The position numbers were made by a program, and so were the translations under genes. From positions 1-64,000 of the forward strand of contig CAJBBX010000005.1 of the NCBI GenBank assembly GCA_903951425.1: a stretch of DNA of 64,000 bases, in the 5' to 3' direction. This stretch comes from an uncultured Chthonomonas sp. (GTDB lineage Bacteria > Armatimonadota > Chthonomonadetes > Chthonomonadales > CAJBBX01). How positions within the stretch are numbered: the first letter of the stretch is position 1; the number at the start of each line of letters is the position of its first letter. The notes beneath the pieces were generated by a model. That model saw only the letters and a program-made list of their open reading frames with translations. It was not told the origin of the DNA and did no database searches. This document shows, piece after piece, positions 12,515 through 46,274 of the stretch.

Positions 12515-13274
12515 TGGTCTGCCGGATGTAGTCGAGCACATGCGGCGGCCCGACGGCGAAGTGGCGGAACGCCTGCTTGGCCTCAGGCAGGTCGGTGATC
12601 AAGAGCGGCTCACCCGACAGGTACTCAAGGCGGCAGCCCGCCTCGGTGCACAGGCACAGCATTGCCGCCGTGTCTACGATGTTCTCAGTAACGCCCAGTG
12701 TGCCCATCAGCGCCCCGGAAGCCGTGTATGCCAACTCGGCGGCTATGCTGCCGAGGCAACGGATGCGCGGGAGCACACGGCTGGCCTCCAGCGTCTTCAC
12801 GCTGTTGCTGCTGAAGCAGAGCGTGTCTTCAGGTCCGATGGACCTGTCGGGGAAGCCGTAAAGGCGGCGCCCGTTGAGCCAAGCGCCACCGCCCAGCTCG
12901 CCCCAGAAGAGCTCACGGGTCACGGGGAGGTAGAAGACGCCCATCACCGGAACGCCCTCGGCCAGCAGGCCCGCCGAGACGCCCCAATGCGGCAACCCGG
13001 CCACGAAGTTGGCGGTGCCGTCAATAGGATCGCAGGCCCAGGTGCGGCCGTCGCCGGCCGACTGGACCCCGTACTCCTCCCCCATGAAGCCGATGCCCGC
13101 ATCGAGCTCCGACAGCGTCTCCGAGAGGAAACGCTCGGTCTCCATGTCCACCTCGGTGACAACCGATGTGTCGGCCTTGAACGTGGCGGTGGCTTGGCCG
13201 GCCCTGACCAGGGCGCGATCGCCCGCTTCCACGACAATGGCCTTCACAGCCTCAAGGTCAGGCCTGTTCCCCAT
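12456..13274 (-). CDS. Inositol monophosphatase family protein
   Basis: 272 residues, typical IMPase length. Metal-binding motifs are present in order: FMGEEYG (Glu pair), WACDPIDGTANFVAGLPHW (DPIDGT signature) and a C-terminal VTENIVDTAAMLCLCTEAG, where family members usually have WDxAAG; here Trp is missing and Val-Asp-Thr-Ala-Ala stands instead. Possible substrates are inositol phosphate, histidinol phosphate or a nucleotide phosphate. Because it ends a run that starts with hisD-hisB-hisH-hisA, a histidinol-phosphatase role deserves thought, but the sequence does not prove it. ATG has GGAGA about 9 bp upstream. Confidence 0.85.
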   Translation of the reverse strand: MGNRPDLEAVKAIVVEAGDRALVRAGQATATFKADTSVVTEVDMETERFLSETLSELDAGIGFMGEEYGVQSAGDGRTWACDPIDGTANFVAGLPHWGVSAGLLAEGVPVMGVFYLPVTRELFWGELGGGAWLNGRRLYGFPDRSIGPEDTLCFSSNSVKTLEASRVLPRIRCLGSIAAELAYTASGALMGTLGVTENIVDTAAMLCLCTEAGCRLEYLSGEPLLITDLPEAKQAFRHFAVGPPHVLDYIRQTITVAHPEWRSAAPSGAQAS

Positions 13275-13299: not shown

Positions 13300-14310
13300 C
13301 TATATATAGCGATTGTAGCTCGACCACTCGGCCACGGGCGGAATCAGTCCGGCGACGATCACTTCGTCACGAAGGGCACAGATATGCCGGTAGCTCTCGT
13401 CCAATTCGGCCCGGTCCTCGTCATCCATGGCAGGCACAGAGCCGTGCAGGCCCGTGGGCGTGAACTCGGCGTCGCCGGCCATCATGACCCCGGCAAAGGG
13501 GCCGTCGCCGAAGAAGACGCCGCACGGCCACGAATAGCCGCCTTCCTGAATGCGGGCGCGGAGCATCTCCACGGACTGGTGCGCCGGCGACTGGAATGAG
13601 GAGCGGCCGCGGAGCTTGATGATGGCTGCCCCGCCCTGCCGCACGGCATCCTTGACGGCCTTCCACTGGCCGGCATCCATGGACCGGCCATTGGCGCTGC
13701 GCCCTGCCAGGACCTCTACCAGCGGCACGCCGTCGATCCGAATCCCCCGCTTCACCACCGCCATCTTCTCGCCGTGGCCACCATAGGTGGAGCAGCCTGT
13801 GACGGCGTCCTGCGGCAGGTCGAAGTGGGCCGCCAGGGCCGACTGCAGGCGCGTGCTGTCCAAGGCCGCCAGAGTGGTCACATGGCCAGGGCGCAGGCCG
13901 GAGTGGACCAGCACGGCAAGGCCAGTGATATCGGCCGGGTTGAAGATGACGACCACAAGCTCAGCCTCGGGCGCGTGGGCGCGGATCGCCACGCCCAGGT
14001 CCCGCGCGATCTCGCAGTTGCCCTTCAGCAGATCCTCGCGGGTCATCCCATCCTTGCGCGGCGCACCGCCGGAGGTGATGATGTAGGTTGCGCCGGTAAG
14101 GGCTTCGGCCAGGTCGGTCGTCCAGGTCACGCGGGCGCCCGGATAGCCGCAGTGGTAAATCTCCTGCGCGGCGCCCTGAAGCGCGGTGGCGAAGGGATCG
14201 TACATGGCGATGCGGCTTGCGGTGCCGGTGGAAAGCAGGTCCTGCACGATGTTGGAGCCGATGGCCCCGGCCGCGCCCAGTACCGCCACTTTTCGGTCTG
14301 TCAGGTACAT
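13300..14310 (-). CDS. mdh: Malate/lactate dehydrogenase family protein
   Basis: 336 residues. The N-terminal Rossmann loop is [19 protein letters not shown]; the substrate loop Arg pair is in [26 protein letters not shown] replaces the usual VSNPVD; the catalytic His is in [14 protein letters not shown]. The MDH type with GxAGxxG is most like bacterial malate dehydrogenases, and the adjacent sucD (29 bp upstream) supports a TCA-cycle role. Divergence in the NAD-binding and His regions leaves lactate or another 2-hydroxyacid as an alternative. ATG preceded by GGAGA. Confidence 0.83.
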
Positions 14311-36470: not shown

Positions 36471-37508
36471 TTAGGCCGGCAAGCCGGCGGCGATCCGTGC
36501 GATCGCGGCACAGGCTTGCCGGCACTGCTCTTCGGAGACGCATCGGTGCGTCACCAACCGGACGCGCCGGCTCCCGAGTGCGAGGCAGAGCACCCCTTCC
36601 CTGCGGAGCGCATCCACCAGGCGTTGCGCTGGCGCGGCGCAGGTCAGGTAGACCATGTTGGTTTGTACCGTCTCCAGATCGAGCGTGATGCCCGGGACGC
36701 CGCAGAGGCCCTCGGCCATGAGGCGCGCGTTGGCGTGGTCCTCCGCCAGGCGGTGCACCATGCCCTCCAGCGCCGGAATGCCGCAGGCCGCAAGGACCCC
36801 TACCTGTCGCAGTCCGCCACCCATCTGCTTTCGAATGCGCCGCGCACGGTCGATGAAGTCGCTCGGACCGCAGAGCAAGCTGCCCACCGGGCATGAGAGC
36901 CCCTTGGATAGGCAGAAGGTCACCGAGTCGACGTCCCTGGAAAGGTCGGCCGCACCGACGCCAAGCGCGACAGCGGCGTTGAAGAGCCGGGCGCCGTCCA
37001 TGTGCAGGTGCGCGCCGTGCTCGTGCACGGCCGCTGCCATTGAGCCGATCACTACGACCGGAACCACCGTTCCGCCGGCCATGTTGTGCGTGTTCTCGAG
37101 CAGGGCGAGCGTGGTGCCGGGCGCATGCAGGTTCTCGTGCTGCAGGCAGGAAGCCACCTCTGCGGGGTCCGGCACGCCGGCGCGGCTTCGGTAATGGCGC
37201 ACCATGACACCCGCGAGCGCTGCCGGGGCGCCGACCTCGAAGCGCGTGGAGTGGGCGTCCCAGTCCATCAGCACCTCGTCGCCCGGTTGGGTCCACGCGC
37301 GTATGGCCACCGTGTTGCTCATGGTGCCGGACGGCATGAAGAGGCCGGCCTCTTTGCCGACCATGCCGGCGGCCAGAGCCTCCAGTCGGGCCACTGTCGG
37401 GTCGTCGCCGAGGACGTCGTCCCCCACTTCGGCTGCCGCCATGGCCGCCCGCATGGCATCGGTCGGCGTCGTCACGGTATCGCTTCGCAGGTCGATCATT
37501 TTCCTCAC
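36471..37508 (-). CDS. ltaE: L-threonine aldolase (low-specificity / L-allo type)
   Basis: 345 residues, fold type I PLP enzyme. N-terminal MIDLRSDTVTTPTDAMRAAM is characteristic; PSGTMSNTVAIRAW, LHMDGARLFNAAVALG, and the PLP lysine in SVTFCLSKGLSCPVGSLL follow. It cleaves threonine to glycine and acetaldehyde, which would feed the glycine cleavage operon at the window start. GTG start at 37508 has GGAGG 5 bp upstream; an ATG three codons later is the alternative. Confidence 0.94.
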   Translation of the reverse strand: MRKMIDLRSDTVTTPTDAMRAAMAAAEVGDDVLGDDPTVARLEALAAGMVGKEAGLFMPSGTMSNTVAIRAWTQPGDEVLMDWDAHSTRFEVGAPAALAGVMVRHYRSRAGVPDPAEVASCLQHENLHAPGTTLALLENTHNMAGGTVVPVVVIGSMAAAVHEHGAHLHMDGARLFNAAVALGVGAADLSRDVDSVTFCLSKGLSCPVGSLLCGPSDFIDRARRIRKQMGGGLRQVGVLAACGIPALEGMVHRLAEDHANARLMAEGLCGVPGITLDLETVQTNMVYLTCAAPAQRLVDALRREGVLCLALGSRRVRLVTHRCVSEEQCRQACAAIARIAAGLPA

Positions 37509-37554: not shown

Positions 37555-37597
37555 TTAACACACGCTTAACATCCCCTTAACAGAGCCGCGCCAGAAT
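37555..37597 (+). promoter_or_regulatory. PHO-box-like triple repeat and -10 element
   Basis: TTAACA occurs three times at 37555-37560, 37566-37571 and 37577-37582: exactly 11-bp period, one helical turn apart, all on the same strand. This matches the Bacillus/cyanobacterial PhoP box layout (TT-AACA-type repeats, 11-bp period). A CAGAAT -10 candidate (37592-37597) begins 9 bp after the last repeat and there is no -35, as expected for PhoP-activated promoters. The next gene opens the porin-pst-pho operon. Confidence 0.72.
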
Positions 37598-37646
37598 GAG
37601 TCCGTGCGGCGGCAGTAGAGCGCCGACACATAGTATGGAGGGCGAC

Positions 37647-39395
37647 GTGCGTATTCCCGCATCACTGTTCATGGCTTGCCTCCTCATGGCCTGCACCGCA
37701 GGCATGGGGACGGCACAGGTTGCGGCCGATGTGCCGAGAGATCACTACGCGTACGGCGCCATCGCGGAGTTGGCGTCGAAGGGCCTCGTTAAGGGCTTTC
37801 CGCCGCAAGGAAACTTCTGGGGCTCGCGCACCGCAACGCGCTATGAGATGGCGACGATCATTCAGCGTGTCCTGGCAAGGGTTGAGGAGATCACGGCGAG
37901 GCGGACGGGACTGCCCGCAGCTCCCCAGCCTGTGGCGCCCGGCCTGAGCCCGGCCGACCTCGATGCCGTTCGGAAGCTGGTGAGCGAGTATAAGACCGAA
38001 CTGGTGGTCATCGGCGCCGACCTGCAGAAGGCCCGTGAGGCTATAGGTGAGCTCAAGGCGGTCGCCGAGGCTGCGACGGAGACGGCGAACAAGGCGCTCG
38101 CGGCCGCGGGAGCCGCCCAGTCGAAGACCGACGAGTTGGGCAAGGACTTTGCCGACCTGAAGGAGTCCTACTCCATCGGCCGCACCGAGTTCGAGACGCT
38201 GACCAAGGACTTCAAAGCACACAAACTCAGCGGATATCTGCAGGCGCGCTTTGAGGCGTCGGACCACTTCGGCTCGGCCCTGTTCCCCGAGAATGGCGGC
38301 GCGGGCACCACCGGCGTAAACTCGACGGGCGGTGGCATAACGCCTGGTACCGCCGGGTATGGCTTCCTGGTTCGCCGTGCGCGCCTGAAGTTCGGCGGCC
38401 CGGTCAGCGTTAGGACCGACTACGCCATTCAGGCAGACCTGACGTCGGTCGGCGGCATGGCCGTCAAGGATGCCTACATCAACGTCAATGACCTGCCTCT
38501 ACCGCAACGGTTCAGCCTGACCGCAGGGCTATTCGCTCCCTCGTTCGGCGTCGAACTGCCCCATTCGTCCAGCACCCGGGAGTCGCCGGAGCGCGCCGCG
38601 GGCTTCTCCGACAGCAACGCGGCGCTGGCCGTGTTCAAGACACCGTCGTCATCGGCATCGGCCGCGGGGACCGCCACCGCCGGCGCCGTGCTGCCGCTAT
38701 TCGCGGGCCAGGACCGCGACACCGGCGTTACGGTGACCTGGAGCGGACCCAACTACAACAACCCGATCAGCAAGGTCTCCCTCGGCGTCTTCAACGGCGA
38801 GGGGCGTGGTTCGAGCGGCGTCAGGAACAACAACCAGGCCGTCGACACCGTCCTTCGCGCACAGACCACCCTCATGGGGGGCAACCTGGACCTCGGGGTC
38901 TCGGGCTACTACGGCACGCTGACGGTCCGTAGCGCTGCTCCAACGGCCGGCGTCTCGGCCGCCTACATGCAGGGGTACCGCATGCTGCTCGGATCAGATA
39001 TGCGCTACATCGCTCCGTTCGGCACCACGTTCCGAGCCGAGTATGCCGGCGGCGTCTTCGAGGCGAGCCCCGACCGGTCTCAGTACCTCAAGGGCAACCA
39101 TGCTCAGGCGTGGCTCGTCAGCGCCAAGCACCCGATCAACCGACGCCTGGACCTGGCGGTCAAGTACGACGAGTACATGCCGATCTCCCAGTCGGGCGTC
39201 CGCTTTGGCAATCTGGACCGGTCCGACTACATCCGGAAGACGCTGCAAGGCGGCTTGCTCTACTACATGGACGAGGCTACTCGCTTCCGCCTCTGGTACA
39301 CGCGCGGCCTGACACCGTATGATCCCTCGGCGGCCGGCGGGCCGGCGCGCGCTCGCCTGGGCCTCATCACCGGCGAGATCCAGGTCAGCTACTAG
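37647..39395 (+). CDS. SLH-domain outer-membrane porin, OprO/OprP (phosphate-selective) type
   Basis: 582 residues. Signal peptide (about 1-23); one SLH domain (about 27-80: DVPRDHYAYGAIAELASKGLVKGF, TRYEMATIIQRVL); a coiled-coil segment (105-195, rich in Ala/Glu/Lys) spanning the periplasm; then a beta-barrel (about 200-582) with RRARLKFGG, ADLTSVGGMAVKDAYINV and SLTAGLFAPSFGVELPHSSSTRE, the Porin_O_P pattern, ending VSY. It anchors to the wall and lets anions through. GTG start with GGAGGG upstream. A PHO-box repeat lies 65 bp above; together with downstream pst genes this points to phosphate entry. Confidence 0.85.
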   Translation: MRIPASLFMACLLMACTAGMGTAQVAADVPRDHYAYGAIAELASKGLVKGFPPQGNFWGSRTATRYEMATIIQRVLARVEEITARRTGLPAAPQPVAPGLSPADLDAVRKLVSEYKTELVVIGADLQKAREAIGELKAVAEAATETANKALAAAGAAQSKTDELGKDFADLKESYSIGRTEFETLTKDFKAHKLSGYLQARFEASDHFGSALFPENGGAGTTGVNSTGGGITPGTAGYGFLVRRARLKFGGPVSVRTDYAIQADLTSVGGMAVKDAYINVNDLPLPQRFSLTAGLFAPSFGVELPHSSSTRESPERAAGFSDSNAALAVFKTPSSSASAAGTATAGAVLPLFAGQDRDTGVTVTWSGPNYNNPISKVSLGVFNGEGRGSSGVRNNNQAVDTVLRAQTTLMGGNLDLGVSGYYGTLTVRSAAPTAGVSAAYMQGYRMLLGSDMRYIAPFGTTFRAEYAGGVFEASPDRSQYLKGNHAQAWLVSAKHPINRRLDLAVKYDEYMPISQSGVRFGNLDRSDYIRKTLQGGLLYYMDEATRFRLWYTRGLTPYDPSAAGGPARARLGLITGEIQVSY

Positions 39396-39423: not shown

Positions 39424-40266
39424 ATGAGATTGAGAACGCTCATAACAGCGGCGGCCCTGTCAGGGCTGGGCTCGAGCCTGGTAAGCCCGGCTTCGGCCCA
39501 GGTCCTCTCACTGAAGGGCTCGGACACCATGCTTGCTCTCGCCCAGGGATGGGCCGCAGCGTACATGAAGGCCCGCCCGGGCCGATCGGTATCCGTGACA
39601 GGCGGCGGCAGCACCACCGGCATTGCATCGCTCATCAACGGTGGTTGCGACATCGCCAACGCCTCCAGAGTGATGAAGGGCAGCGAACTGGATAAGGCCA
39701 AGGCCCGGGGTTTTGTGCCGCGCGAGTATGCTGTCGCCCGCGACGGCCTCGCCATCGTGGTGAACCCCGCCAATCCGGTGGCCAAGATCACCATGGACCA
39801 GCTGAAGAAGATCTACAACGGCACGTACACGAACTGGAAGCAGTTGGGTGGTCGCGAGCAGGCGATCGTTACCGTCGGCCGCGACTCCTCATCGGGAACC
39901 TACGGCTTCTTCCAGGATACGGTGCTTGGCATTGGCCGGCCCTACCGCCCCGATATGCAGACCACGCCGTCGACGAACTCCATCGCCCAGACCATCAGCC
40001 AGGATGCCGGCGCGATCGGCTATGTGGGAGTGGCGTACGCCAAGGAGTTTGGCGCGAAGGTCAGGATCATCCCGGTAGCCGGGGGCTCCGCCGATGCCGT
40101 CATGCCCAGCCTCGAGACCGTGCGCACGGGCAAGTACCCGCTCTCCAGATACCTGTTCATGTACACGCGCGGCAACCCGTCGGGAACAGCGAAGGACTTC
40201 ATTGATTGGGTCCGAAGCCCGCAGGGACAAGCCGTCGTGAGTCAGGTAGGCTATTTCCCGCTGTAG
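39424..40266 (+). CDS. pstS: Phosphate-binding protein PstS, periplasmic form
   Basis: 280 residues. Signal peptide (about 1-26, ending SPASAQV) without lipobox, so soluble or cleaved. The phosphate-binding pattern is present: LKGSDTMLALAQGWAAAY, SVTGGGSTTGIASLINGGCDIANASR, RDSSSGTYGFFQD, and SQDAGAIGYVGVAY. ATG has AGGAGA 7 bp upstream. It lies 28 bp after the porin and 68 bp before a second PstS. Confidence 0.93.
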   Translation: MRLRTLITAAALSGLGSSLVSPASAQVLSLKGSDTMLALAQGWAAAYMKARPGRSVSVTGGGSTTGIASLINGGCDIANASRVMKGSELDKAKARGFVPREYAVARDGLAIVVNPANPVAKITMDQLKKIYNGTYTNWKQLGGREQAIVTVGRDSSSGTYGFFQDTVLGIGRPYRPDMQTTPSTNSIAQTISQDAGAIGYVGVAYAKEFGAKVRIIPVAGGSADAVMPSLETVRTGKYPLSRYLFMYTRGNPSGTAKDFIDWVRSPQGQAVVSQVGYFPL

Positions 40267-40334: not shown

Positions 40335-41204
40335 ATGTACCACAAGTCTCGCTTCGCCGCTGCCCTTGCCGCTGTGGGCTGCATCGGCCTGGCCGGATGC
40401 GCCGCCCAGCCCAAGGAGGGATCGGCGGGAGCCAATGCCGCGACGCTGTCGGTCAAGGGTTCAGATACTATGGTCCAACTGGCCCAGGCATGGGCAGAGG
40501 CGTTCATGAAGGCCCACCCGGATGTGCGCGTGAGCGTCACCGGCGGCGGCTCAAACACCGGCTTTACCGCCCTGATCTCCAAAGGCGCCGACATCGCCAA
40601 CGCGTCGCGCGCCATCAAGCCTGAGGAGGCTGAGAGCGCCGCGAAGAAGGGCGTTACGCCCAAGGAGTTCGTGGTGGCGCAGGATGCCCTCTCGATCATT
40701 GTGAACAAGGCGAACCCGGTAACGGAACTCACAATGGACCAGCTGAAGGACATCTACACGGCCAAGGTGACGAACTGGAAGGATGTCGGGGGCTCAGACG
40801 CCCCGATCGTTCTGAATGCCCGCGAGTCCTCGTCAGGCACGTCGACCTTCTTCCAGGAGCATGTGCTCGGCAAGGGGACGCCGTATGCCGCCACTGCCAT
40901 GCTTCAGCCCGCGACATCGCAGATCGTGTCCGGCGTTGGGCAGGATGCGGGCGCCATTGGCTATGTGGGGCTCGGGTACCTCAACGACACCGTGAAGGCC
41001 ATCCTGCTAAAGAAAGACGCGGGATCCGACGCCGTCGCGCCGACTGTCGCGAACGTCGTGAACGGTACGTACCTTCTGGCGCGGCCGCTCTTCGAGTACA
41101 CGAATGGGGAGCCGTCCGGTACGGCCAAGGTGTGGCTTGACTGGGTCCGCGGGCCCGAGGGGCAGGCCATTGTGAAGAAGCTGGACTTCGTTCCGGCCGA
41201 GTAG
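40335..41204 (+). CDS. pstS: Phosphate-binding lipoprotein PstS, second copy
   Basis: 289 residues, paralogous to the preceding gene. Here the signal peptide ends in a lipobox GLAGC (about residue 22), so it is lipid-anchored. Same ligand blocks: VKGSDTMVQLAQAWAEAF, SVTGGGSNTGFTALISKGADIANASR, ARESSSGTSTFFQE, GQDAGAIGYVGLGY. It directly precedes pstC by 20 bp, so it is probably the main partner of the permease. The linker after the lipobox is short and Gly/Ala-rich. Confidence 0.94.
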   Translation: MYHKSRFAAALAAVGCIGLAGCAAQPKEGSAGANAATLSVKGSDTMVQLAQAWAEAFMKAHPDVRVSVTGGGSNTGFTALISKGADIANASRAIKPEEAESAAKKGVTPKEFVVAQDALSIIVNKANPVTELTMDQLKDIYTAKVTNWKDVGGSDAPIVLNARESSSGTSTFFQEHVLGKGTPYAATAMLQPATSQIVSGVGQDAGAIGYVGLGYLNDTVKAILLKKDAGSDAVAPTVANVVNGTYLLARPLFEYTNGEPSGTAKVWLDWVRGPEGQAIVKKLDFVPAE

Positions 41205-41224: not shown

Positions 41225-42139
41225 GTGGCATCACCCAAGAGGGGCTTCAAGGAGCGCGCGGTAGAGGGCGTCGTTTTCAGTGGCGGCATGGCTTCCATAG
41301 TCCTGGTCGTGCTTATTTTCCTGTTTGTGCTTAAGGAGGCTATGCCGCTCCTGCGTGAGTACCCGCTTATCCGGTTCCTCACGGACCGCGGCTGGCAGCC
41401 AACGCTTGCGGCGCCCGAGGGGCCGTGGTTCGGGCTGATGCCGAACCTGTGGGGATCGTTCCTCGTCACGGCCGGAGCGGTGGCCCTGTCGGTTCCCCTT
41501 GCGCTCAGCACGGCCATATTCACTTCCGAGGTGGCGCCGGGCTGGCTGCGTGACATGCTCAAGCCGCTTGTGGAGCTCCTTGCGTCGGTGCCGTCTGTAG
41601 CTATCGGCTTCGTTGGAGCTGTGGCCATCAACCCGCTCGTGAAGGATCTCTTCGGCCTCGATACAGGCAAGAGCGCCATGGCGGGATCGATCATGCTTGC
41701 GTTCATGGCGGCTCCGACCATCGCAACCATCGCCGAGGATGCCATCAACGCGGTTCCGCGCTCGTTCCGCGACGGTTCCCTGGCCCTCGGGGCCACGCGG
41801 TGGCAGGGCATCGCCAGTATCGTCCTGCCGGCCGCGAAGCCGGGGATCCTGGCAGCCGTTATGCTGGGTGTCGGCCGCGCCGTAGGCGAGACGATGGTTG
41901 TGATCATGGTCACCGGCAATGCCGGCGTTCTCCCGGACAAGGGGCTCTGGTACGCCTTCACGCACTCCGTCCGCACGATTACGGGGACCATCGGCGCGGA
42001 GGCGCTTGAGGTGGCCAACGGCGAGCCGCACTACCGCGCCCTGTTCATGCTCGGTGTCGTCCTATTCACCATCACGTTCATCCTGAATGCCATCGCCCAT
42101 TACTCGTTGGGCAAGGGCGATCGGAGGGCACAGGCATGA
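41225..42139 (+). CDS. pstC: Phosphate ABC transporter permease PstC
   Basis: 304 residues, six membrane helices. The EAA loop is in RSFRDGSLALGATRWQGIASIVLPAAKPGILAA; AVGETMVVIMVTGNAG is the characteristic PstC segment after it. GTG start. The last four bases form an ATGA overlap with pstA. Confidence 0.95.
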   Translation: MASPKRGFKERAVEGVVFSGGMASIVLVVLIFLFVLKEAMPLLREYPLIRFLTDRGWQPTLAAPEGPWFGLMPNLWGSFLVTAGAVALSVPLALSTAIFTSEVAPGWLRDMLKPLVELLASVPSVAIGFVGAVAINPLVKDLFGLDTGKSAMAGSIMLAFMAAPTIATIAEDAINAVPRSFRDGSLALGATRWQGIASIVLPAAKPGILAAVMLGVGRAVGETMVVIMVTGNAGVLPDKGLWYAFTHSVRTITGTIGAEALEVANGEPHYRALFMLGVVLFTITFILNAIAHYSLGKGDRRAQA

Positions 42140-43086
42140 CACCGGCAGTCGACCCAGGCGTGGCTCCCGGACCGTCGCTGGGGGTCGGATCGCGATCTCG
42201 GGCCCACCGCGGACAGACCTTCGCCTTCGGCGCACTGGGGTTCGGCACCATGCTGATCGTGGCCCCTGTGCTCTGGTTCTTCGGCTACGTGGTGTATCAC
42301 GGCGCCTCGCAGATTAGCTGGACATTCCTGACGCAGCCGCCGAACGCCATTGACGCATCGGGCGGCATCTTCCCGGCCATAGTGGGCACTCTCTACCTGA
42401 TGGTGGGTACCGTCCTGATTGCCATGCCACTCGGGATCGCCGGGGCGATCTACCTGACGGAGTACGCAGGCCACTCACCTATCGTCAGGCTGATCCGGTT
42501 GGCGATCGTGAACCTCGCCGGTGTGCCGTCCATCGTGCATGGCCTCTTCGGCCTGGGCTTCTTCGTGCTGTTTGTGGGCGGGTCTATTGATGCGTTTGTC
42601 CTGCATGCAAGCCGACCCGTGTGGGGGCAGCCCTGTATCCTCTGGGGCTGCTGCACCCTTGCTGTGGTGATCCTGCCCATCATCATCACCTCGACCGAGG
42701 AGGCGCTCCTGGCGGTTCCGTCATCGTTCCGAGAGGCATCGCTTGGGCTCGGGGCCACCAAGTGGCACACAATTCGCCGCGTGGTCCTGCCCGCGGCGTT
42801 GCCTGGCGTACTGACCGGCGCCATCCTTGGCGTGGGCCGGGCGGCAGGCGAAACGGCGCCGGTGATGATCACCTGTGCCGCGTCCTTCATGCCCACGCTG
42901 CCGCGTGGGCTGAATGATCAGGCCATGCTGCTGCCGTACCACCTTTACTTTGTCGTAACGCAGGTTCCGAACCCGTCCCTGGGACTCCAGTCAGGCATAG
43001 CCCTTGTGTTGATCGCCCTCGTGATCTCGATCAACGCCTCGGGCATCTTCCTGCGGATGCGGGCGCGGCGGGCGCGAAAATGGTAA
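42136..43086 (+). CDS. pstA: Phosphate ABC transporter permease PstA
   Basis: 316 residues, six helices after a 30-residue hydrophilic N-terminus. The EAA loop is SSFREASLGLGATKWHTIRRVVLPAALPGVLTG followed by GVGRAAGETAPVMITCAA. NLAGVPSIVHGLFGLGFFV is typical of PstA. Coupled to pstC by ATGA. Confidence 0.95.
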   Translation: MTPAVDPGVAPGPSLGVGSRSRAHRGQTFAFGALGFGTMLIVAPVLWFFGYVVYHGASQISWTFLTQPPNAIDASGGIFPAIVGTLYLMVGTVLIAMPLGIAGAIYLTEYAGHSPIVRLIRLAIVNLAGVPSIVHGLFGLGFFVLFVGGSIDAFVLHASRPVWGQPCILWGCCTLAVVILPIIITSTEEALLAVPSSFREASLGLGATKWHTIRRVVLPAALPGVLTGAILGVGRAAGETAPVMITCAASFMPTLPRGLNDQAMLLPYHLYFVVTQVPNPSLGLQSGIALVLIALVISINASGIFLRMRARRARKW

Positions 43087-43106
43087 CTGTGATCAAGGAG
43101 AGTGAC

Positions 43107-43469
43107 ATGCGACGTCTGCGTTGGGTCGTTCGGCGCCTTGGGGGCGTTGGGCTCTCAGCCCTATGCGCTACCGTTCTTGCGGGATGCACCAAACCGACCG
43201 AGCCCGCTTCGACTGGGCCTGAGGCTGCGGCATCACGTCCCGATGTGGTTGCGGGCAATGACGGCAAGCTCAAGTCCGATCTTGAGGCCAAGTTCAAGGC
43301 TGATCGCGCGCTGGCCAAGGAGGACATTGAGGTTGCGGTGAAGGACGGCCGCGTCACCCTCTCCGGCGAGGTCTCCAGCACCGAAGTCAAGGTGAAGGCA
43401 GAGGACACCGCCAGGGCCATGCCCGATGCCTTTGGCGTAACGGTTGAAGGCCTCGTGGCCAAGCAATGA
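43107..43469 (+). CDS. BON-domain lipoprotein inside the pst operon
   Basis: 120 residues. Signal peptide with lipobox TVLAGC (about residue 25), a Pro/Ser/Ala linker, then one BON domain (about 50-120): [65 protein letters not shown] domains (OsmY, Kbp) bind membranes or ligands. It stands between pstA and pstB, which normally lie together. ATG has AAGGAG 6-7 bp upstream; its TGA overlaps the pstB start. Whether it senses phosphate, links the SLH-porin, or is unrelated is not known. Confidence 0.85.
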
Positions 43470-44356
43470 GCGGACCCGCTACCGGAGCCATACGCCTCAC
43501 CGGCAACGGGCGCGCCATGGAGGCAGGCACACACGCGTTCCACTCCATCGAGGCATCGGCACAGGCATCCGACCGAACCGATGCTGCTAACGGTGACGCC
43601 CTGCTGCCGAAGCTGTCGGTCAAGGGACTGAATTTCTACTACGGAGGCTTCCAAGCGCTCCGTGACAACACCATGGAACTGCCGTCGCGGTCGATTACGG
43701 CGCTGATCGGGCCATCGGGCTGCGGCAAGTCGACGTTCCTCCGCACCTTGAACCGGATGAACGATGAGATCCGCGGCACCCGCGTGGAGGGGTCGGTCCT
43801 CCTGGATGGGCACGACATCTACGCCCCGGATGTCGACGTCGTCGCCCTTCGCAAGGCCATCGGGATGGTCTTTCAGCGCCCCAACCCGTTCCCGAAGTCG
43901 GTGTACGAGAACGTGGCATACGGTCCGCGCATCCATGGCGAACGCAGGAAGTCACGGCTCGACGAGGTCGTGGAGCGGAGCCTGAAGCGAGCCGCGCTCT
44001 GGGAGGAGGTTAAGGCCAAGCTCCATAGGTCGGCCTTCGATCTGTCCGGCGGGCAGCAGCAGCGCCTCTGCATCGCCCGAGCGCTCGCGGTGGAGCCCGA
44101 TGTGATCCTGATGGACGAGCCCTGCTCTGCCCTTGATCCGAACTCAACCTACCACATCGAGGAACTGATGCGGGAACTACGCGACACGGTGACCATTGTG
44201 ATCGTGACGCACAATATGCAACAGGCGGCCAGGGTCTCCGACATCACCGGGTTCTTCCACACGGGAGACCTGGTCGAGTTTGGGCCGACCAACGTGGTGT
44301 TCACGTCTCCGCGGGACAAGCGTACGGACGACTACATCCGGGGCCGGTTTGGTTGA
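43466..44356 (+). CDS. pstB: Phosphate ABC transporter ATP-binding protein PstB
   Basis: 296 residues, including about 45 extra at the N-terminus compared with the usual 250. Walker [21 protein letters not shown]-loop [21 protein letters not shown], signature [16 protein letters not shown], Walker [15 protein letters not shown]-loop [13 protein letters not shown]: all the PstB-type forms. Coupled to the BON gene by ATGA. Confidence 0.97.
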
Positions 44357-44357
44357 T

Positions 44358-45050
44358 ATGAGCGGCCCACGCATTCTGGTGGTGGACGACGAGGCTCCCA
44401 TCGCCGAGGCTGTGGCCTACAGCCTTCGACAGGAGGGCTACGGCGTATCTATCGCATCTGATGCCCTGGAGTGCCTTGAGGCCGCACGTCGCGATCGGCC
44501 AGATCTCATCGTTCTGGACGTCATGCTGCCGTCCGGGTCGGGCCTCGACATCTGTCGAACGTTGCGGAAGCGGAACGACCGTGTGCCGATCATCCTGCTG
44601 ACGGCCCGGGCCGAGGAGGCCGACCGGGTGATCGGTCTCGAGCTAGGCGCCGACGACTACGTGACCAAGCCCTTCAGCATGCGTGAACTGGTGGCCCGCG
44701 TGCGCACGGTCCTTCGCAGAATCTCGTCGGCTACAGGTGATGCTGCACCGGCCATCCGTGTGGGCGACCTCAGCATTGATCCGGCGTCGCGCGAAGTGCG
44801 CGTCGGCGTCGCGGTGGCCGAGTTGACCGCAAAGGAGTTTGACCTTCTCTACTTCTTGGCCGCCAACCCCGGGCGCGTCTTCACACGCCAGTTGCTGCTT
44901 GATCGCGTCTGGGGCGCGGACGCCTATGTGGATGAGCGCACCATCGATGTCTACGTTCGTTGGCTCCGGAGCAAGATCGAGACCGATCCCGCACGGCCCG
45001 CGCGCATCACAACCGTGCGCGGCGTCGGATATAAGCTGGCGGCGTCCTAG
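44358..45050 (+). CDS. Response regulator PhoP/PhoB (OmpR family)
   Basis: 230 residues. Receiver domain with Asp54 as phospho-acceptor and Lys at VTKPFSMREL; C-terminal winged helix (about 135-230) with LTAKEFDLLYFLAANPGRVFTRQLLLDRVWG, RTIDVYVRWLRSKIE and TVRGVGYKL. Its position after pstB and before the sensor gene, plus the PHO-type repeat upstream of the operon, make it the likely phosphate-starvation regulator and a candidate for autoregulation. Starts 1 bp after pstB. Confidence 0.93.
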   Translation: MSGPRILVVDDEAPIAEAVAYSLRQEGYGVSIASDALECLEAARRDRPDLIVLDVMLPSGSGLDICRTLRKRNDRVPIILLTARAEEADRVIGLELGADDYVTKPFSMRELVARVRTVLRRISSATGDAAPAIRVGDLSIDPASREVRVGVAVAELTAKEFDLLYFLAANPGRVFTRQLLLDRVWGADAYVDERTIDVYVRWLRSKIETDPARPARITTVRGVGYKLAAS

Positions 45051-45053
45051 CCG

Positions 45054-46274
45054 ATGACACCAGTGTGCCTGTCGCTGGTCGCACTGGGCGCCGCAGTGGC
45101 CACGCTTGCGGTGTTCATGCTTCGACGGGTGCGGCAGCAGTTGCTGGCCGCAGAACGCTCGGCAGCCGGGCTGAAGGCAGCCACGGAGTGCGCCGACGAC
45201 GAGACGGCTACCGTTCGCGCCATGCACACCGCCCTGATAGACCTCATGGACTGCGCGGTGCTGGTCGTCGATGCTGACGACAATGTCACCGAGGCCAACA
45301 GCCTGGGGTGGAAGCTGCTCGGCTCTGCGCCGGGCGCCAGGTCCGTGTCGGTACGGGCCGCCTTGCTGGATGGTCTTGTTGATGCCGTGCGCCAGGCTCG
45401 CATCGGCGTCCCGGTGCGCCAGGTGGACCTCTGCGGCCAGGTTCGCTCAGACACTTCGGCGGTCGCTTCCGCCGTCCGTCTGGGCGGGACCGAGTCCCCG
45501 GTACTGCTGGTTGTGCGCGACATCACCGAGGTGAAACGGCTCGAGACGGTCCGGCAGGATTTCGTCGCGAACGTGTCACACGAGCTACGGACCCCTCTGG
45601 CTTCGATACGTGCGCTGGCCGAAACGCTTGAGGATGGCGCCATGAGAGATGCCTCGGTAGCCACGCGCTTTCTAGGCAACATCATCTCGGAAACACAACG
45701 CCTCACGCGCATCGCCGATGACCTGCTCGCGCTGACCGAGGCCGAGACGCGGCCGGCCACTACGGTGGAAGTGGCTCTGGATGACTTGATCCACAGGGTG
45801 ACGCAGAAGCTGGCCCCGCAAGCGAAGGCCGCGAGGCAAAGCCTAGATGTGGCCGTCGAGCCCGGGCTACGCGTTGCGGGCAACGCTGACCGGCTGGAGC
45901 AGGTACTGATCAACCTCGTTGATAACGCAATGAAGTACACCCAGCCAGGCGGTCGATTGGCCGTCCGCGCCGAACGCACGGGTCAGGCAGTCCGCATTGA
46001 TGTCTCGGATACGGGCATTGGCCTGATGGAGCACGAGACGGAGCGGATATTCGAGCGGTTCTACCGGGTCGACAAGGCGCGCTCACGCCAGTCCGGCGGC
46101 ACAGGTCTTGGCCTCTCGATCGTCAGGCGCATCGTGGAGGCGCATGGCGGCACCGTCACTGTGACCAGCGAGTTGCACAAGGGAAGCACCTTTATTGTCA
46201 GTCTGCCTGCCCTGCCCGATGCGGTCGACCATGGCGTGGCCGTAACGCCACCGGCCCAAGCTCAGGTACTATGA
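45054..46274 (+). CDS. phoR: Phosphate regulon sensor histidine kinase PhoR-like
   Basis: 406 residues: one N-terminal membrane helix (about 4-23), a PAS-like domain (60-160), HisKA with His176 in VANVSHELRTPLAS, and HATPase_c (N box VLINLVDNAMKYT, G boxes DTGIGL and GGTGLGLSIV). There is no periplasmic sensor domain, as is normal for PhoR, which reads the Pst transporter instead. Starts 3 bp after the regulator gene. Confidence 0.92.
   Translation: MTPVCLSLVALGAAVATLAVFMLRRVRQQLLAAERSAAGLKAATECADDETATVRAMHTALIDLMDCAVLVVDADDNVTEANSLGWKLLGSAPGARSVSVRAALLDGLVDAVRQARIGVPVRQVDLCGQVRSDTSAVASAVRLGGTESPVLLVVRDITEVKRLETVRQDFVANVSHELRTPLASIRALAETLEDGAMRDASVATRFLGNIISETQRLTRIADDLLALTEAETRPATTVEVALDDLIHRVTQKLAPQAKAARQSLDVAVEPGLRVAGNADRLEQVLINLVDNAMKYTQPGGRLAVRAERTGQAVRIDVSDTGIGLMEHETERIFERFYRVDKARSRQSGGTGLGLSIVRRIVEAHGGTVTVTSELHKGSTFIVSLPALPDAVDHGVAVTPPAQAQVL

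Follow-up and report, generated by a model that had tools for sequence, protein, structure and literature searches.

The three TTAACA repeats between a porin gene and a divergent beta-eliminating lyase gene (36471-37508, minus strand) most probably form a PHO box, which would be read by the response regulator encoded in the same porin-pst operon and would activate this operon; from sequence comparison we assign to this reading a probability of about 0.92. The host is a member of the Armatimonadota near Chthonomonas with a genome of 6.08 Mb, of which the window, that is the whole stretch of DNA analysed here, covers 64 kb. An array of this kind, with a matching spacing to the -10, precedes pst genes across the phylum, and on this basis the PHO box proposed in the original prediction appears to be upheld.

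The array and the operon downstream

The half-sites lie on one common strand and are separated by 5-bp spacers, with the exact 11-bp period and the positions originally predicted (Table 1). The sequence GAGCCGCGC (9 bp) separates half-site 3 from CAGAAT, and also the -10 is therefore found where it had been placed, 9 bp below the array. Under a first-order Markov model about 9e-8 exact TTAACA triples are expected per genome, in agreement with the earlier statement that the array is unlikely by chance. Searching for TTAACA-N5-TTAACA, no second site was found with up to two mismatches in the 64-kb window (0.09 expected), nor with up to one mismatch in the 6.08-Mb genome; the whole-genome scan that had been suggested as a check gives a single match, upstream of the porin-pst-phoPR-like genes.

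Table 1. Features of the porin-pst region and of the candidate small RNA loci (positions refer to the window, or to contig C106 where indicated)
Feature	Position	Strand	Remarks
PHO-box half-site 1, TTAACA	37555..37560	+	identical in two same-genus genomes
PHO-box half-site 2, TTAACA	37566..37571	+	over the -35 position
PHO-box half-site 3, TTAACA	37577..37582	+	
-10 hexamer, CAGAAT	37592..37597	+	[TC]A...T at equal spacing in 20/22 independent phylum pst promoters
Shine-Dalgarno-like GGAGGG	37637..37642	+	conserved in G001, G002
Porin, SLH-domain, phosphate-selective porin O/P-like	37647..39395	+	Pfam Porin_O_P 1.9e-6, SLH 1e-4
PstS-like phosphate-binding protein 1	39424..40266	+	Pfam PBP_like_2 6e-46
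PstS-like phosphate-binding protein 2	40335..41204	+	Pfam PBP_like_2 4.5e-45
PstC permease	41225..42139	+	Pfam BPD_transp_1; related permeases in 57/61 genomes
PstA permease	42136..43086	+	Pfam BPD_transp_1
BON-domain lipoprotein-like protein	43080..43469	+	Pfam BON 2e-11
PstB ATPase	43466..44356	+	Pfam ABC_tran 5e-30
OmpR/PhoB-family response regulator, presumed box reader	44358..45050	+	Pfam
PhoR-like histidine kinase	45054..46274	+	Pfam HisKA, HATPase_c
Two candidate small-RNA array sites, C106	42033-42086, 42467-42520	+	
Array plus candidate RNA, C106	42033-42210 and 42467-42640		L237 ~13033-13210, 13467-13640

The gene content predicted by Pfam agrees with the earlier description of porin-pst-phoPR-like genes that include their own regulator, and the genes from porin to kinase would be expressed as a single transcript. 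Close relatives found through PstC carry the labels of Chthonomonas and of other Armatimonadota. The BON-domain gene is inserted between pstA and pstB, and no PhoU gene is present in the operon, this gene being located on contig C144. The best PDB match of the response regulator is RegX3 (3e-62); its effector domain also matches PhoB (1gxp, 2.7e-20), the RegX3 and WalR/VicR matches being somewhat better.

When the region of the array was scanned for a sigma-70-type -35/-10 pair, none was found, and CAGAAT agrees with TATAAT at only 4/6 positions, as expected of an activator-dependent promoter. The start of the mechanically called reading frame, ATG 37596, falls within the -10 hexamer region and the porin start was therefore reassigned; translation most likely begins at GTG 37647, 50 bp past the -10, a start that is kept in two same-genus genomes. 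Several traits of a PHO box are thus found together: direct repeats of about 7+4 bp with a period of 11, a position upstream of phosphate-acquisition genes that is conserved among relatives, a box about 10 bp above the -10 with no functional -35, and a PhoB/PhoP-family regulator with its kinase within the same operon.

The mechanism that we propose is the following. When phosphate is scarce, the PhoR-like kinase would phosphorylate the response regulator, which would bind head-to-tail on a single face of the DNA, each 11-bp unit taking one molecule. With the middle unit substituting for the missing -35, the regulator would recruit RNA polymerase to the -10 (37592). Transcription from about 37604 would produce the porin, the two PstS, PstCAB and the BON protein, as well as the two-component pair, which, being expressed from its own target promoter, would close a positive loop. 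The identity of the binding regulator, the activation, its dependence on phosphate and the transcription start are all features that we infer.

Conservation of the promoter across the phylum

In two genomes of the same genus (G001 and G002) an identical triple stands ahead of the same porin and is the sole such site in each. Going farther, we scanned 58 oriented pst loci, of which 57 come from relatives and one from the window, for triples scoring at least 15/18, trying periods from 6 to 17 and ten shuffles. Triples at period 11 occur in 18/58 loci, every other period gives 0-1, and triples appear in 0-1 loci of the shuffled sequence. The array is oriented with the coding strand in 15 of the 18 loci that carry it, and most arrays are found either 1.2-1.5 kb (before pstS) or 3.1-4.2 kb (before the porin) upstream of pstC. 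About two thirds of the 58 loci, mostly from distant families, are array-free at this strict score, suggesting that in these the motif has degenerated or been replaced; in the Cloacimonadota and Oscillospiraceae pst loci checked the array was not seen. Another array, in G003, lies ahead of the gene for a regulator that shares 55% identity with that of the operon, and one in G004 stands ahead of a phytase gene.

To evaluate the -10, arrays of 22 independent pst promoters were picked blind to it, and [TC]A...T was found exactly 9 bp past the last unit in 20 of them, while other spacings gave 0-2. The phylum consensus can be written as C-TTAACA at an 11-bp repeat, followed by N9 and YANACT or YANAAT. 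This geometry also bears on which of the two flanking genes is controlled. Only about 47 bp separate the array from the start of the divergent lyase gene, and it could be imagined that the box mainly represses or otherwise regulates that gene; its orientation, the position of the -10 and the conservation of the -10 favour instead the porin-pst side, and what lies upstream of the array in G009 and G011 resembles the beginning of a divergent response regulator gene rather than of a lyase gene, so that we consider control of the lyase very improbable.

The exact array together with the -10 gives about 60 matches in 121 genomes, against 2 for the reversed control. The motif is short, and two-copy TTAACA matches are frequent in AT-richer relatives, where the reversed control is similar; two-copy searches are therefore uninformative in those genomes, and it is the three units with the -10 that discriminate. 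Two-unit or weak matches near SLH or unrelated genes (G008, G034 and G055) were not counted, since they may be due to chance. That the array itself is a product of chance, or a decayed tandem repeat with no regulatory role, is highly improbable in our opinion, given the roughly 1e-7 triples expected per genome, a period and a -10 spacing fixed across the phylum, and the excess of exact matches over the reversed control.

Other targets and the link with pilin-like genes

Further sites in this genome were searched for with a relaxed pattern learned from relatives (three TTMAY units and the -10, with up to two mismatches), which gives about 11 separate sites, while the reversed pattern gives 0. 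On contigs C61 and C50 the arrays stand at DUF1559 pilin-like genes followed by PF04185 phosphoesterases, and at C106:34647 at a pilin-like gene followed by a run of genes that includes a purple acid phosphatase. Additional pilin-like genes preceded by arrays are found on C106 and C82, and on C96 the site is at a CotH-like gene. A site at C106:34507 (minus strand) lies at the start of a gene (L237:3634-5508, minus strand) that encodes a fusion of a HAD hydrolase and a class-V aminotransferase and that, by its sequence, looks like the phnX-phnW of phosphonate degradation; the array at this start is weak. The expectation that sites should lie near phosphate genes is therefore borne out by several of them, at phosphoesterase, purple acid phosphatase or phnX-phnW-like genes.

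The remaining two sites, both on C106, have no long gene downstream. Each leads into about 114 nt that end in a strong intrinsic terminator and contain no clear reading frame. The two segments are alike and fold better than shuffled sequences (z -4.4 and -3.2); they are conserved in one same-genus genome, the first segment being found there only, and Rfam gave no match for either. We regard them as candidate phosphate-controlled small RNAs, whose transcription would start from the arrays, and the pair was apparently duplicated along with the 3' end of a PHP-domain gene.

Among the genes downstream of the exact matches in the 121 genomes, 49 were examined (L271-L317 in relatives) and 23 of them are pilin-like (DUF1559). 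The corresponding enrichment, P = 3e-32, assumes about 5500 genes and independent genomes and is hence only indicative. Among the other targets, PstS occurs five times and a porin four times, three of these porins being recognised by Pfam and the fourth by its SLH/porin-like sequence together with an earlier porin match. Also present are PhoU, a PhoB-like regulator with 51% identity to that of the operon, and three beta-propeller proteins similar to the N-terminal part of the phosphoesterases. A phytase gene lies behind two of the array-linked pilin genes, and a purple acid phosphatase gene behind another. Targets of the exact pattern with no phosphate link are also present, namely SpoU methylase, GntR, DinB-like and cytochrome peroxidase-like genes; the SpoU rRNA methylase genes behind exact arrays (L299 and L301) are found in G087 and G078, two genomes of one distant family.

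The possibility that the array marks all pilin-like genes was rejected, since only 6/49 carry it in this genome, with a clear score gap. For ten array-free pilin genes examined, the next gene is a sulfatase, a glycosidase or unrelated; at L214 and L215 of this genome sulfatase genes follow array-free DUF1559 pilin-like genes. These neighbourhoods suggest that each pilin-like gene may pair with its own secreted hydrolase, and from gene neighbourhood only we put forward the hypothesis that pilin-like proteins might help to export phosphatases.

The abundance of pilin-like targets could also be read in another way. WalR/YycF-type regulators recognise a similar direct repeat, whose reverse complement is TGTTAA, and the sequence alone does not therefore name the binding protein. 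A WalR/YycF-like paralogue of the OmpR family, responding to a cell-envelope signal, might bind the array; its core regulon would then consist of the pilin-like genes, with pst as a side target. In favour of this, TGTTAA-N5-TGTTAA is read on the reverse strand, as in the WalR-type consensus, the effector domain of the operon regulator is somewhat closer to RegX3 and WalR/VicR than to PhoB, and 23 of the 49 array targets are pilin-like. However the recurrent targets include pstS, porin O/P, PhoU, phytase and PhoB-like regulator genes, some pilin targets adjoin phytase, purple acid phosphatase or phosphoesterase genes, and relatives of the operon-encoded regulator are targets themselves. We consider such an envelope regulon unlikely and retain the PHO box read by the operon's regulator.

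To a wider proposal we give even odds, namely that DUF1559 pseudopilin-like genes dominate the phosphate-starvation regulon of the Armatimonadota, each of them probably serving to export or to display at the surface the secreted phosphatase encoded beside it, so that the dozens of pseudopilin copies that otherwise lack an explanation would fall into nutrient-specific sets, and that the regulon includes at least two small RNAs driven by PHO boxes.

Relation to known PHO boxes and significance

The PhoP box of Bacillus subtilis has TTAACA-like half-sites with spacers of about 5 bp; the array described here differs in its strict 11-bp spacing, in its diderm host and in a regulon with porin genes. 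In mycobacterial SenX3-RegX3, RegX3 is the closest solved relative of our regulator, a likeness at the protein level, while the gene context differs. The original prediction had compared the array with both Bacillus and cyanobacteria, and of these the cyanobacterial box is the closest one described by sequence and copy number, rather than specifically that of Bacillus. The cyanobacterial box consists of three copies of CTTAACCT with an 11-bp period (PMC1906773). The box of SphR, a PhoB-type regulator, shares with ours at least three direct repeats, the 11-bp period and the core CTTAAC/CTTAAT, and it is likewise found upstream of pst operons and phosphatases (PMC1906773). It differs in that the last two bases, CT, of the 8-mer (with 3-bp linkers) are not kept here, where A is usual, and in that the Armatimonadota, a different phylum, have the -10 fixed 9 bp downstream. 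With the PhoB box of Escherichia coli the array shares 11-bp direct repeats about 10 bp above the -10 (PMC1906773, PMC4415409), but the half-site is TTAAC instead of CTGTCA(T), and three to five units are present instead of the two of the classical E. coli pho box. Judging from sequence, the Armatimonadota promoter, whose consensus places the middle unit over the -35 position, is close to the E. coli arrangement with the half-site of cyanobacteria.

The PHO box itself is an already known kind of element. The open-access collection that we searched yielded no account of a Pho box in Armatimonadetes. What appears to be new in the searchable literature is the description across the phylum, the fixed geometry of the promoter and, most of all, the pilin-like targets; the pilin-rich regulon, too, looks new. 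A nearly uncultured phylum gains in this way a concrete phosphate-response motif, approximately CTTAACA at an 11-bp period followed by N9 and YANACT. One Armatimonadetes genome has been reported to encode 79 PulG-type genes, discussed as likely attachment pili (PMC4072686). For the large DUF1559/pseudopilin families the motif provides a handle, linking a definite subset of them to phosphate scavenging.
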